A stretch of 64,000 nt of DNA, taken from assembly GCF_900156045.1 (NCBI RefSeq), contig NZ_FTMX01000001.1, forward strand, positions 372,001-436,000. Direction: 5' to 3'. Of the stretch, positions 23,655-52,555 are shown piece after piece (positions within the stretch are counted from its first letter, which is position 1; each line of letters opens with the position of its first letter). Origin of the DNA: Peribacillus simplex (GTDB lineage: Bacteria; Bacillota; Bacilli; Bacillales; DSM-1321). The notes below the pieces were generated by a model that saw only the letters and a program-made list of their open reading frames with translations, was not told the origin of the DNA and did not search any database. Position numbers and translations under genes: made by a program.

Positions 23655-23873
23655 ATGGGAATTATTATTAATATTGATGTGATGTTAGCAAAACGAAAAA
23701 TGAGCGTAACGGAGCTTTCGGAGAGGGTTGGAATTACTATGGCGAATCTTTCCATTCTGAAAAATGGAAAAGCAAAAGCGGTTCGTTTTTCAACATTAGA
23801 AGCGATATGCAAGACTTTGGATTGTCAGCCAGGTGATATTTTGGAATACAAAAGCGACGAAGACACTCAATAA
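23655..23873 (+). CDS. YozG-like Xre-family regulator
   Basis: 72 residues, essentially a single helix-turn-helix of Cro/CI type: VMLAKRKMSVTELSERVGIT followed by MANLSILKNGKAKAVRFSTL. The C-terminal CQPGDILEYKSDED is typical of the small YozG group. ATG 23655 is preferred, with GAGGTG at 23644-23648 spaced for initiation; a GTG at 23646 lies inside that binding site. It likely regulates its own operon with DUF2975. Its TAA stop lies inside the 8-bp direct repeat that flanks a mobile element. Confidence 0.85.
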   Translation: MGIIINIDVMLAKRKMSVTELSERVGITMANLSILKNGKAKAVRFSTLEAICKTLDCQPGDILEYKSDEDTQ

Positions 23874-23877
23874 AAAT

Positions 23878-24041
23878 GGCTGTTTTGGCATACTTTGTTG
23901 CTATTCACCAAGTAATGCGGTGTGGTTGATTTCCCCTCCATTGCTCGCCTGTCCCGCTGCTCCCGCAGGAGTCTCGCACTTCCGCTCCAATCAACCTTAA
24001 ATCGTTTCGTTTTAAAAACAACAATCTTTGCGAAAAGAGCT
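23878..24041 (-). mobile_element. MITE-like element copy 1 (internally deleted)
   Basis: 164 bp, minus orientation. It matches copies 2 and 3 except for a 54-base internal deletion between GCGGGACAGG and CGAGC. Flanked by ATAAAAAT at 23870-23877 and again at 24042-24049. The left repeat contains the yozG stop codon (23871-23873). The element keeps its terminal sequences and the CTCCTGCGGGAG hairpin but lacks the GGTGAG/CTCACC stem. It carries no plausible gene. Confidence 0.8.
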
Positions 24042-24389
24042 ATAAAAATAGACAACAAATTTATTTAATTAAAGGTAGTCGATAGGAATTTAAGGGATAG
24101 CCATTAAGCTATCCCTTCTTTGCGTTTATTGATGTTATTTAATCAGAGAATTCCCTTGATATTAGTGACAAAAATATGATGAGATTTGCAATGTTTGCAC
24201 CTCAAAGGGAACCCGTTACGCAATAGGGGGATCCTTTTTTTTGCTGCATGAATGTGTTTGGCTGAAAGATATGCATATATAATAGTAGAAAGTGTTCAGC
24301 GACTGTTTCTCCAGGGTGGAGTGGATATTGATAAAAATGTTATAATTGTAAATACATGTAATTAAAAGTGATCTGAAGGGGGAATGTTT
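24042..24389. other. Gene-free spacer with two hairpins
   Basis: Hairpin one: AAGGGATAGC (24093-24102) with GCTATCCCTT (24109-24118), six-base loop. Hairpin two: around 24204-24242, an interrupted stem ending in GGATCC and eight Ts. Neither follows a recognised gene. They may end read-through from yozG past the inserted element, or an unannotated small RNA. Confidence 0.45.
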
Positions 24390-27456: not shown

Positions 27457-28794
27457 ATGAATAACAGAATGTATCTTTCCTTGGCCATCCCGCTTACGAT
27501 TTCGACGATGAGTACGCCCTTGCTCGGTGCGGTCGATACGGCTGTGGTTGGAAAGTTGAGTGATCCCGCTTATATTGGCGGGGTGGCTGTCGGAACGATA
27601 ATTTTTAATACGATGTATTGGCTTTTTGGTTTTCTGCGGGTCAGTACATCTGCCTTTGCTGCACAAGCGGAGGGGGCACGGGATGAAAAGCAAAGCCTGA
27701 TGGCCTTGATTCGGCCTTTTTTCATTGCAGCGATCATCGGCCTGCTTTTTATCGTGATCCAAAAACCCATTTTGAATATCTCGTTAGGTGCAATCGGTCC
27801 GGATTCGGACGTTTCCGCCTTCGCCGCAGATTATTTCGGCATCAGGATATGGGGTGCACCTTTTGCATTATTGAACTATGTCATCTTAGGCTGGTTAATC
27901 GGGAAATCCAGGATAAAAACATCTTTGTTCATTCAAGTTTTCATGAATGTGATCAATATTGTCTTATGCCTCGTTTTTGTAAATGGCTTTTCGTGGTCTG
28001 TATCAGGGGTTGCTGCCGCTTCATTGATATCAGAGATTTCCGCTTTTTTGCTGGGCCTATGGGTCATCCGGAAAGCGGTTAACGTACCGGATTCATTTTC
28101 ATTCCGGGAGGGGTTCGATCGGGCTTCCTTGAAAAAAATGATGGTGGTCAACAGGGATTTATTCATCAGGACCATTTGCCTGATCACGGTTTTCAATCTT
28201 TTTACGGCCAAGGGAGCCACTTTCGGGACAGAGACACTGGCGGCCAATGCCGTACTCATTCAAATCCATTACCTGATGGCCTATTGCTTTGATGGCTTCG
28301 CGAACGCGTCGAGTCTTCTGGTCGGGAAGGCGATTGGTTCGAGAGATATAAACCTTTATAAAAAAACACTCTCACTATCGGCGCGGTGGGGCTTGTATGC
28401 TTCGTTCATACTTGCCGCATCTTACTATCTATTCAGCGATAGGGTCATTCTCCTTTTCACGGACATTCCCGGCGTCATCGAACTTGCCCATGAATATGGA
28501 CTTTGGATAGTCCTATTCCCATTCAGTGCCTTTATCGGACTCATTTTTTATGGAGTGTTTACCGGTGCCACAGAAGCCGTTCCAGTAAGGAACTCAATGC
28601 TCCTTGCACTATTCGCTTTTCTACTTGTCCAATTCACAGCGGTCAGCAATCATGGCAATCATGGATTATGGCTTGCATTCCTGGCTTTCAGTTTAGGGCG
28701 TTCCGTATTTTTAGCTCTATACATCCCAAGGCTGAACCGAAAAGTGGCAAAGCTTATGGATGCCGATAGTCTAATGAAATCATCTTCTTTTTAA
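27457..28794 (+). CDS. MATE-family efflux transporter (DinF-like)
   Basis: 445 residues, twelve membrane helices in two homologous halves. The N-terminal half has IPLTISTMSTPLLGAVDTAVVGK (seen in part as PLLGAVDTAVVGKL) and RVSTSAFAAQAEGA, typical of the DinF branch. The second half has TETLAANAVLIQIHYLM and FANASSLLVGKAIGSRD. It exports organic compounds in exchange for Na+ or H+; the substrate is unknown. ATG 27457 follows AGGAGGT with 9-base spacing. No terminator follows; instead a MITE-like element begins 5 bases after the stop, and the stop codon lies in its flanking direct repeat. Confidence 0.9.
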   Translation: MNNRMYLSLAIPLTISTMSTPLLGAVDTAVVGKLSDPAYIGGVAVGTIIFNTMYWLFGFLRVSTSAFAAQAEGARDEKQSLMALIRPFFIAAIIGLLFIVIQKPILNISLGAIGPDSDVSAFAADYFGIRIWGAPFALLNYVILGWLIGKSRIKTSLFIQVFMNVINIVLCLVFVNGFSWSVSGVAAASLISEISAFLLGLWVIRKAVNVPDSFSFREGFDRASLKKMMVVNRDLFIRTICLITVFNLFTAKGATFGTETLAANAVLIQIHYLMAYCFDGFANASSLLVGKAIGSRDINLYKKTLSLSARWGLYASFILAASYYLFSDRVILLFTDIPGVIELAHEYGLWIVLFPFSAFIGLIFYGVFTGATEAVPVRNSMLLALFAFLLVQFTAVSNHGNHGLWLAFLAFSLGRSVFLALYIPRLNRKVAKLMDADSLMKSSSF

Positions 28795-28799
28795 TAAAA

Positions 28800-29014
28800 G
28801 CTCTTTTCGTAAAGATTGTTTTTAAAACGAAACGATTTAAGGTTGATTGGAGCGGAAGTGCGAGACTCCTGCGGGAGCAGCGGGACAGGTGAGACCCCAC
28901 AGGCGTTAACGCCGAGGAGGCTCACCGCCCGCCCCGCGGAAAGCGAGCGATGGAGGGGAAATCAACCACACCGCATTTCTTGGTGAATAGCAACAAAGTA
29001 TACGAAAACAGCCT
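28800..29014 (+). mobile_element. MITE-like element copy 2 (full length)
   Basis: About 215 bp. Flanked by TAATAAAA at 28792-28799 and 29015-29022 (the match extends to TTAATAAAAG). The left copy contains the MATE stop codon. The ends are imperfect inverted repeats: GCTCTTTTCGTAAAG at the left, and the complement of CGAAAACAGCCT at the right. Inside are GGTTGATT/AATCAACC, CTCCTGCGGGAG, GGTGAG/CTCACC enclosing GGCGTTAACGCC, so the RNA or single strand should fold strongly. No transposase gene is present. Confidence 0.85.
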
Positions 29015-29171
29015 TAATAAAAGAGGATGTTTTTTTAAAAATGCAGGGAATTTTCGGTAGTTTGATGTTGGCGATAATACGGGAATACGAAGAATAGGTA
29101 GCAACGCTTGGCGAATCAGGTAGTAAAAGTGATAAAATGAAAAATATATATAAAAGAGGAGTTGTCGTATT

Positions 29172-44634: not shown

Positions 44635-44689
44635 ATAATTGTAATATTTTGAAAATATGGAATAAAACAATAGAACGAGCGGATGAACG

Positions 44690-44880
44690 TTGTGGGAGAG
44701 TGCAAAGCATTGAGCCACCGAAGGAGCAAGTTCCAAAAATATCCCTTGGAGCAAATCTCTCAGGTAAATGGAACCGCAGCTGGACGCAACTCTGGAGAGC
44801 GCGCAGGAAATGTGCCGCCAACGGGGGAATCTCCATGGCCAAAATGGAGTTAAACTCTCAGGTAAAAGGACAGAGAAGGG
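44690..44880 (+). ncRNA. Tandem glycine riboswitch (gcvT type)
   Basis: Two aptamers in series. Aptamer 1 (about 44690-44776): GGGAGAG opening, GAGCCACCGAAGGAGCAAG in the middle, and AAATCTCTCAGGTAAATGG at the end. Aptamer 2 (about 44785-44878): CTCTGGAGAG, GCCGCCAACGGGGGAA, and AAACTCTCAGGTAAAAGGAC. These are the conserved core strings of the class. The 3' strand of aptamer 2 overlaps the left arm of a terminator (44865-44918), as in glycine ON switches. The gene downstream is an M20 amidohydrolase rather than the gcv operon. Confidence 0.95.
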
Positions 44881-51204: not shown

Positions 51205-51219
51205 TTGGTTTTGATGTTA

Positions 51220-51437
51220 GGCTCTTTTTGTAAAGATGTTGTTTTTAAAACGAAACGATTTAAGGTTGATTGGAGCGGAAGTGCGAGACTCCTGCGGGAG
51301 CAGCGGGACAGGTGAGACCCCACAGGCGTTCACGCCGAGGAGGCTCACCGCCCGCCCCGTGGAAAGCGAGCATCTGGATGGGAAATCAACCACACCGATT
51401 TACTTGGTAAATAGCTACAAAGTATGCGAAAACAGCC
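51220..51437 (+). mobile_element. MITE-like element copy 3 (full length)
   Basis: 218 bp, plus orientation, begins GGCTCTTTTTGTAAAG and ends CGAAAACAGCC. Flanked by TGATGTTA (51212-51219) and TTATGTTA (51438-51445), one mismatch. The right-hand repeat contains the stop codon of the minus-strand aminopeptidase (TTA at 51443-51445). The internal stems are as in copy 2. Small reading frames inside it are repeat shadows. Confidence 0.82.
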
Positions 51438-51442
51438 TTATG

Positions 51443-52555
51443 TTATTTTAAATTTTCTGGATTTAAATTTTCCAGTTCCGGTAACACGAAGCGTCCGTCC
51501 TTACGTATCAAGACGTCATCAAAATGGATTTCCCCGCCGCCATATTCAGGCCGCTGGATATTGACCAGGTCCCAGTGAATGTCTGAATGGTTTCCGTTAA
51601 AGGCATCATCATAGCATTGTCCGGGAGTGAAATGAAAACTTCCATCAATTTTTTCATCAAAGAGGATATCTTGCATCGGATGTAGAATATAAGGATTTAC
51701 ACCAATTGCAAATTCACCGACATATCGTGCGCCTTCATCAGTATCAAAAATTTTGTTGATGCGTTCCGTATCATTCGCAACCGCTTCAACGATTTTTCCA
51801 TCCTTGAATGTCAACTTCACGTTTTCAAAAGTAAAACCCTGATAAGGGGACGGAGTATTATACGAAATCACTCCATTGATGGAATCTTTAACCGGAGCCG
51901 TATATACTTCACCGTCAGGAATGTTCAGCTCACCCGCACATTTGATGGCTTTAATGTCTTTGATGGAGAAGGTTAGGTCCGTACCGGGCCCAGTTAAGCG
52001 GACCTTATCCGTTTTATCCATCAATTCAACAAGATTGTCCATTGCTGCGCTCATTTTGCCATAGTCGAGGTTGCAGACTTCGAAATAAAAGTCTTCGAAT
52101 GCTTCTGTGCTCATTTTGGCTAATTGGGCCATTGAATTTGTCGGGTAGCGAAGTACGACCCATTTTGTTTTTGGCCCGCGGATATTTCTATGTACTTTAC
52201 CGACTGTCTGTCCATGGATCGCCATCTTCTCTGAAGGGACATCGGATTGTTCATTGATATTATCCCCGGCACGAAGCCCGATATAAGCATCCATCTGTTT
52301 CATTACGTTTGCTTCAAACTCACCCATCAACTTGTACTGTTCTTCTTTGGCACCCATCAGCAAGGCACGATCCACTTGGTGATCCTTTAAAAGGACGAAT
52401 GGGTAACCACCTGCTGCATAGGCTTCATTCACAAGTGCGTTAACAAGTTCACGCTGCAATCCGAAGTTTTCGATCAAGATTCTTTCACCTTTTTGAAGCT
52501 TCACGGAATAATTGATTAAGTTTTTGGCCAATGTACCAATTCTGGGATCTTTCAT
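51443..52555 (-). CDS. M29-family aminopeptidase (AmpS-like)
   Basis: 370 residues. Thermophilic-aminopeptidase family: LINYSVKLQKGERILIENFG at the start, then DLTFSIKDIKAIKCAGELN, and the metal-binding C-terminal half with GEFAIGVNPY (Glu), GQCYDDAFNGNHSDIHWDLV (His, Asp) and EIHFDDVLIRKDGRFV. Cobalt or zinc activated, cytoplasmic peptide turnover. ATG 52555 is set by GGAGG on the minus strand. It has no hairpin terminator of its own; the mobile element touches its stop codon. Confidence 0.9.
   Translation of the reverse strand: MKDPRIGTLAKNLINYSVKLQKGERILIENFGLQRELVNALVNEAYAAGGYPFVLLKDHQVDRALLMGAKEEQYKLMGEFEANVMKQMDAYIGLRAGDNINEQSDVPSEKMAIHGQTVGKVHRNIRGPKTKWVVLRYPTNSMAQLAKMSTEAFEDFYFEVCNLDYGKMSAAMDNLVELMDKTDKVRLTGPGTDLTFSIKDIKAIKCAGELNIPDGEVYTAPVKDSINGVISYNTPSPYQGFTFENVKLTFKDGKIVEAVANDTERINKIFDTDEGARYVGEFAIGVNPYILHPMQDILFDEKIDGSFHFTPGQCYDDAFNGNHSDIHWDLVNIQRPEYGGGEIHFDDVLIRKDGRFVLPELENLNPENLK

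Follow-up and report, generated by a model that had tools for sequence, protein, structure and literature searches.

What are the three short, related sequences that recur in this stretch of the Peribacillus simplex genome (the window, 64,000 nucleotides in length), which enzyme could have moved them, and what is the strongly folded core that they have in common? An initial annotation, made from the letters of the window, described a MITE-like element inserted at stop codons and suggested an ISL3-type transposase as its helper. The finding is real insofar as the element is a MITE, and its ends are of the IS1595 type; the new part is its structured core, which is shared with other transposons.

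The three elements are present where the annotation placed them, measure 164, 215 and 218 bp, and are flanked by 8-bp AT-rich direct repeats that in all three cases overlap the stop codon of a neighbouring ORF. A 30-base piece of their core matches the window three times with 0 mismatches, and not once in 100 shuffles. Copy 1 (23878-24041, minus strand, 164 bp) lies between two exact copies of ATAAAAAT (23870-23877 and 24042-24049), the left one overlapping the stop codon of a small ORF that had been annotated as yozG. It is one decayed copy of the element: the reported loss of 54 bases is borne out by the orthologous copy in a genome labelled as the same species (G330), which is 220 bp long, and the deletion falls in the core, of which 71 of about 126 bp are left (23925-23995, minus strand). 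Copy 2 (28799-29013, plus strand, 215 bp), with a core of 125 bp running from GTTGATT to AATCAAC (28842-28966, plus strand), is likewise common to G330, where a different internal deletion has reduced it to 129 bp. Its repeats (28791-28798 and 29014-29021) are an exact 8-bp duplication as annotated, but the letters given for them, TAATAAAA, contain one wrong base, since the copy has A where its first G should stand; the correct repeat is TTAATAAA. Copy 3 (51220-51437, plus strand, 218 bp; core of 126 bp at 51265-51390, plus strand) is bounded by TGATGTTA on the left (51212-51219) and TTATGTTA on the right (51438-51445), the latter holding the stop codon of a minus-strand ORF, and the single mismatch reported between the two is there. 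The corresponding site in G330 is empty and contains TTATGTTA once, so that the left repeat TGATGTTA, one change away from the empty site, represents a later change. The window also holds a glycine riboswitch at 44683-44786 (Rfam RF00504, 52 bits).

These copies belong to a large family. In the genome that holds the window (6.08 Mb in 31 contigs) a 27-base core string occurs 96 times at up to two mismatches, with 0 occurrences of the backward control, and the left arm occurs 86 times, in 13 cases without a core string nearby. Both ends are present in 11 of these 13 arm-only copies, ten of which have an exact 8-bp repeat; the core is shortened in nine and full length in two, and the right end is absent in two. 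Collecting all copies, as the annotation had recommended, gives at least 109 (96 by core plus 13 by left arm), some of them partial. Both ends were clear in 85 of the 96 core-string copies, the 11 with unclear ends being set aside, and 69 of the 85 are 218-220 bp long. Exact 8-bp repeats flank 59 of the 85 (mean under shuffled pairing, 1.1), repeats matching in at least seven of eight positions flank 71 (shuffled mean, 3.9), and the direct identity of the flanks, over the same 85 copies, peaks at k = 8 (69%) and stands at 1% at k = 9. The termini are imperfect inverted repeats, alike in 18 of 23 bases of the family consensus. The target is symmetric, about T.TTTWWWWAAA.A, and its two outer positions on each side are nearly all A/T (counts among 71 repeats: C1 71, C2 70, C3 64, C4 63, C5 60, C6 58, C7 70, C8 71). 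It resembles the target of ISEc69/Tn7052, of the IS1595 family, for which the accessible text of PMC7835479 gives 100% A/T at C1, C2, C7 and C8 and 83-91% between, and near-100% A/T at these four positions is described for IS1595 family targets in the accessible parts of PMC7835479 and PMC8101967.

Comparison with G330 (one contig, 90 core strings) provided the empty sites that the annotation had named as a check. The 96 copies were compared with fetched stretches of that genome, and 40 of them were left unplaced in those regions. An insert lies between the flanks in 43 cases, 39 of them element-sized (129-253 bp). Another 13 cases, with under 60 bp between the flanks, have no insert; seven of these, including the site of window copy 3, are cleanly empty, with a flank overlap of 8 bases in five and 7 bases in two, and the other six are not clean owing to diverged flanks, a partial element or a tandem array. 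The element is thus short and multi-copy, with consistent inverted ends, target-site duplications and empty sites, and the description of it as a dispersed MITE with AT-rich 8-bp target duplications holds across the genome. Two loci showed larger rearrangements. At C23:676501-676952 (L081; L306) three copies stand in tandem at a spacing of 212-213 bp, where G330 has room for one. At C18:84475 and C18:110768 (L292) two copies bound a 26-kb segment, and in G330 the outer flanks meet at one MITE; this 26-kb difference looks like an indel by recombination between MITE copies.

Insertion at stop codons, seen in three of three window copies, does not stand as a rule. When ORFs of at least 60 codons and the 71 clean repeats were considered, 9 of 71 repeats overlapped a stop codon, compared with 20 of 192 target-like sites in the window (Fisher p = 0.66) and 6 of 91 target-like sites outside long ORFs (p = 0.27). 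The T-tract of terminator-like hairpins was enriched as a target (14 of 71 versus 20 of 370 target-like intergenic sites, p = 0.0002), a comparison to be interpreted with the knowledge that the control sites, drawn from the window and 20 stretches of G330 outside ORFs of 100 codons, had passed a score threshold below which a quarter of the unfiltered real sites fall. Only 1 of the 71 insertions lies well inside a long ORF. The neighbouring ORFs (at least 80 codons, n = 71) are co-directional in 40 cases, convergent in 16, divergent in 13 and one-sided in 2.

The search for a full-length insertion sequence with the same termini, also proposed in the annotation, was successful in relatives, and what it found were IS1595 elements. 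Ends were clear in 14 of 30 IS1595 loci; four of these, which we call type A (L133, L139, L149 and L160), share 19-22 of 23 end bases with the MITE, and the other ten share 8-17. The 8-bp repeats of the four match in 8, 7, 8 and 8 of 8 positions, respectively. NCBIfam places the transposases of L133 and L139 in IS1595 (215 and 204 bits, cut-off 75), and both carry Pfam domain PF12762 (70 and 60 bits, cut-off 27), the L133 one reaching 21 bits against the ISL3 model (cut-off 180); the transposase frame of L160 is split. An intact IS1595 transposase of 335 amino acids is encoded in a genome of the same genus (G030) by a 3021-bp element (L515, 132-3152) that has jumped into a copy of this very MITE, with the repeat TTAAAAAT on both sides. 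That element has, by eye, a transporter-like passenger ORF, and the flanks of the surrounding MITE resemble, also by eye, those of copy L086 of the genome studied here.

The AT-rich 8-bp target duplication and GG-terminal inverted repeats of the MITE are those of the IS1595 family, but at about 219 bp it is too short to encode a transposase of its own, and it is therefore a non-autonomous relative of IS1595 and not a member insertion sequence. From the likeness of the ends and targets we infer that an IS1595-type transposase moved these copies. In the MITE's own genome no intact IS1595 transposase of the type-A kind was found; the only such relatives there were a short fragment at C11:467277-467432 and a broken element (L194, region C11:350313-351147), whose interrupted transposase lies within 2015 bp framed by type-A-like ends and a target repeat alike in 8 of 8 positions. 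Since the only relative of this kind is broken, the helper has probably been lost, has decayed or lies in an assembly gap. An ORF-like stretch between the ends of L194 resembles, by eye, a membrane-protein ORF beside the L133 element.

The ISL3-type helper of the annotation has in its favor that ISL3 elements of relatives mostly start with GG[C/T]TCT and have mostly AT-rich 8-bp repeats (11 of 30 loci were clear-ended). Their ends, however, have only 7-12 of 23 bases in common with the MITE, compared with 19-22 for the four type-A IS1595 loci, and 10 of the 11 have the inner end ...TGTTGGGGT; the MITE does not have ISL3-type ends, and the ISL3 transposase domain (PF01610) had no match in its own genome. 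We rejected this candidate, and an ISL3 helper now appears hardly credible.

Between the arms lies the core, 126 bp in length, GC-rich and bounded by GTTGATT and AATCAAC. It folds strongly on either strand, with z scores of -3.8 and -4.1 as RNA and of -3.1 and -3.9 as DNA. Of the 299 genomes and 116 genera of the order that were sampled, 73 and 31, respectively, contained a 23-base core string (at most two mismatches), with up to 125 occurrences per genome and, among the matches listed, none of the backward control; the hosts among the 80 of 105 loci listed include Peribacillus, Neobacillus, Mesobacillus, Metabacillus, Cytobacillus and Fictibacillus. Fifteen plasmid records (Priestia, Peribacillus, Bacillus, Paenibacillus, Cytobacillus and Niallia) contain parts of the element, none of them covering 80% of it, and viral_contigs held no exact match. 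A known RNA family was rejected as an identity for the core, given that the covariance models of Rfam 15 had no match at the elements at the gathering threshold and none at E up to 1.

The fold of the core is kept across genera by compensatory changes, and it decays in resident copies. In 26 cores, chosen by eye for diversity and length from 50, 96.4% of cells were paired, versus 35-48% when the structure was slid along the sequences, and both sides had changed in 10 pairs (3.6 in shuffles, at most 3 when slid) and in 32 cells (9.4 and at most 6, respectively), the tested structure having been derived from the same 26 sequences, which favors it over the slid controls. A wider test, in which this structure was mapped onto 81 of 173 cores from other genomes, kept after thinning at 90% identity and partly the same sequences, gave 94.9% paired cells and 89 compensated cells versus 8-16 when slid. 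Compensatory changes are therefore above controls, as for a conserved structured nucleic acid. In the MITE's own genome, with 75 distinct cores, 0 cells were compensated, compared with 0-4 when slid. RNAalifold, applied to 77 cores aligned with MAFFT, returned only five pairs, probably on account of poorly aligning loops. G-U exceeded A-C in the cores of other genomes (58 versus 28, p = 0.002) and stood at 26 versus 17 in those of the own genome (p = 0.22), p values that serve as guides only since the cells of a core are not independent; the excess favors folding, as RNA or single strand, of the strand that reads GTTGATTGGAGC. In genomes of three families, cores were seen interrupted near CCCCGCGG/AAAGC by short inserts (L183, L186, L187 and L190).

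Decay in place could be followed in 32 orthologues common to the own genome and G330 (37 shared loci minus five that were large, tandem or ill-bounded). Divergence amounted to 104 of 3678 sites in the core (2.8%), 106 of 2812 in the arms (3.8%; range 3.4-4.2%) and 281 of 12611 in the flanks (2.2%; 200 bp on each side, coding parts included). Nine deletions of 12-69 bp fell in the core and one of 20 bp spanned arm and core; in the arms there were four, three of them 25-46 bp long and the fourth 9 bp. Consequently, with a core that diverges no slower than the flanks and is often deleted, we see no guarding of the core where it is resident. One deletion junction, GGGAG/CACCGCC, recurs in L546, L547 and L557 with different target repeats, and the L041 orthologue in G330 acquired it in place as well; it may mark a deletion hot spot in the core, or the deleted form may itself have moved.

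In other genomes the same core is framed differently. Ends of the form GG.T...A.CC with an 8-bp repeat matching in at least six of eight positions were found around 51 of 168 cores, compared with 21 of 834 swapped flanks, and among the matches listed the frames are mainly of type A (GGCTCTTTTC...) or of a second kind, type B (GGCTGTGTTAAAG...), whose ends also occur on full-length IS1595 elements. Inside IS1595 elements the core was not seen, a core-like string lying near 4 of 60 loci (two of them the same place), each time beyond the element to the extent that its ends are known; their transposase should therefore not need it. Further core-bearing elements lie in G274 and G058/G102. At L347 and other loci of G280, one element has two cores as an inverted repeat within a single frame.

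The core is also found with transposases of another family. Of 24 IS1182 loci in relatives 12 contained the core string; a GACTGTAGACAAA-type end was seen at 14 loci, which include 11 of these 12. In nine of these, those whose leader was inspected, the core stands between that end and the transposase start, antisense to the transposase. The leader of L519 is 79 bp long and without the core, others of the same genus carry it, and L520 has it at a different place in the leader. When this MITE was compared by BLAST with the 24 IS1182, 11 type B and nine other loci (the type B and other loci being hand-picked), 28 of 41 matches ran from base 44-48 to base 171-172 of the element, which are the edges of the core; three extended to 175-185, one was a separate left-arm match in G280, and the rest were shorter. 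At L412 and L443 the core stands beside fragments of an IS1182 transposase; in a genome of the same genus (G019), core-bearing elements whose two ends resemble, by eye, those of IS1182 have the look of deletion derivatives of that family. At four IS1182 loci (L522, L524, L526 and L527) the flanks are inverted and not direct repeats, and the left end is a hairpin followed by a T-run; this reads as insertion into terminator-like palindromes, as published for IS1272 in the accessible text of PMC4923244.

We consider it likely that this is a MITE with IS1595-family ends, moved in trans, carrying a shared structured module that is kept by selection on the copies that spread. According to this hypothesis an IS1595-family transposase acting in trans would cut or copy the non-autonomous element of about 219 bp at its ends (GGCT[C/G]TTTTCG...), and insertion into AT-rich 8-bp sites would duplicate the 8 bp. 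The 126-bp module is common to the type A MITEs, the MITEs with the second IS1595-type end and the leaders of autonomous IS1182 elements. Selection would keep the core by acting on copies that spread and not on those that are resident, and the module might lower the cost of insertion, shield against read-through or serve a step in mobility. A more far-reaching version, in which a structured cassette, the core, moves among unrelated transposon families across the order (MITEs with either kind of IS1595 end, autonomous IS1182 elements and further frames) and is selected at the level of the mobile element and not of the host, as a helper hairpin that improves its carriers as parasites or as a tiny mobile element of its own, is one that we put forward tentatively.

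Other explanations bear on the same observations. The copies could be repeats that serve the host cell, of the REP-like, terminator or regulatory-hairpin sort, and not parasites, in line with the strong conserved fold, the enrichment at terminator T-tracts and the finding of just one insertion deep within a long ORF. Transposition is nevertheless shown by the target duplications and empty sites, the resident cores diverge no slower than their flanks and are often deleted, and no compensation is seen inside the own genome, and we regard a host function as very improbable. A question closer to the data is whether the core travels at all, or whether all frames descend from one ancient element, the ends of which drifted along with their transposases. 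Type A and type B ends are alike (GGCT.T.TT......TTGTTG) and both occur on IS1595 elements, as such common descent would predict; the IS1182 elements, with ends of their own and a transposase of another family, fit it poorly, as do the restriction of homology to the core in 28 of 41 BLAST matches and the core-free leader of L519 next to same-genus elements with the core, at a different place in L520. On balance descent from one element seems rather unlikely to us.

We give about the same weight to the idea that the core is an independent mobile cassette hopping into MITEs and insertion sequences. The edges GTTGATT/AATCAAC in several frames, the IS1182 leaders with and without the core and with the core at more than one place, and the two cores arranged as an inverted repeat in one G280 element are what hopping could produce. 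Against it, neither a target duplication around an inserted core nor machinery for such hopping was found, and several IS1182 leader inserts are longer than the core and lie, by eye, between repeats of about 18 bp. A MITE mobilised in trans, with a module maintained through spreading copies, remains our preferred reading.

Among known systems, the IS1595 family (ISPna2, ISSod11, IS1016 and other groups) is similar in its GG-ends and AT-rich 8-bp target duplication, and the full-length relatives with the MITE's ends carry a transposase with the IS1/IS1595 zinc-binding domain; the MITE differs in being without a transposase and in having a GC-rich folded core unseen in the IS1595 elements examined. 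The IS1182 family (IS1272, TnSha1) includes autonomous elements of the same genus that hold the same core in their leader, and inverted repeats flank its elements in relatives, which fits the targeting of hairpins and terminators described for the family in the accessible text of PMC4923244; the MITE, unlike these, has IS1595-type ends and an 8-bp direct repeat, and the IS1182 ends (GACTGTAGACAAA...) and target are different. Short, foldable repeats in many copies are also known as bcr1 and other stem-loop families of Bacillus, as described in the accessible part of PMC2267715, which cites a paper whose title credits bcr1 with characteristics of a mobile element. These families differ from ours in size and hosts, a distinction drawn from the tables of that report. 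In one open library of papers core strings, including a 19-mer, had no match, no paper on an IS1595-linked MITE in Bacillus treated this element by its title, and no paper was found on a MITE in Bacillaceae.

In conclusion, a MITE of an insertion sequence family is in itself ordinary. What is unusual is a folded module that a core string detects in 31 of the 116 genera sampled, preserved by compensatory changes, common to two unrelated transposase families, and rotting once inserted. With such a core, selection for spreading can be told apart from selection on resident copies, and the idea of a cis-acting hairpin common to different transposons becomes concretely testable. For annotation, it offers an explanation of a GC-rich repeat that can be present at more than 100 sites of one genome in this order.
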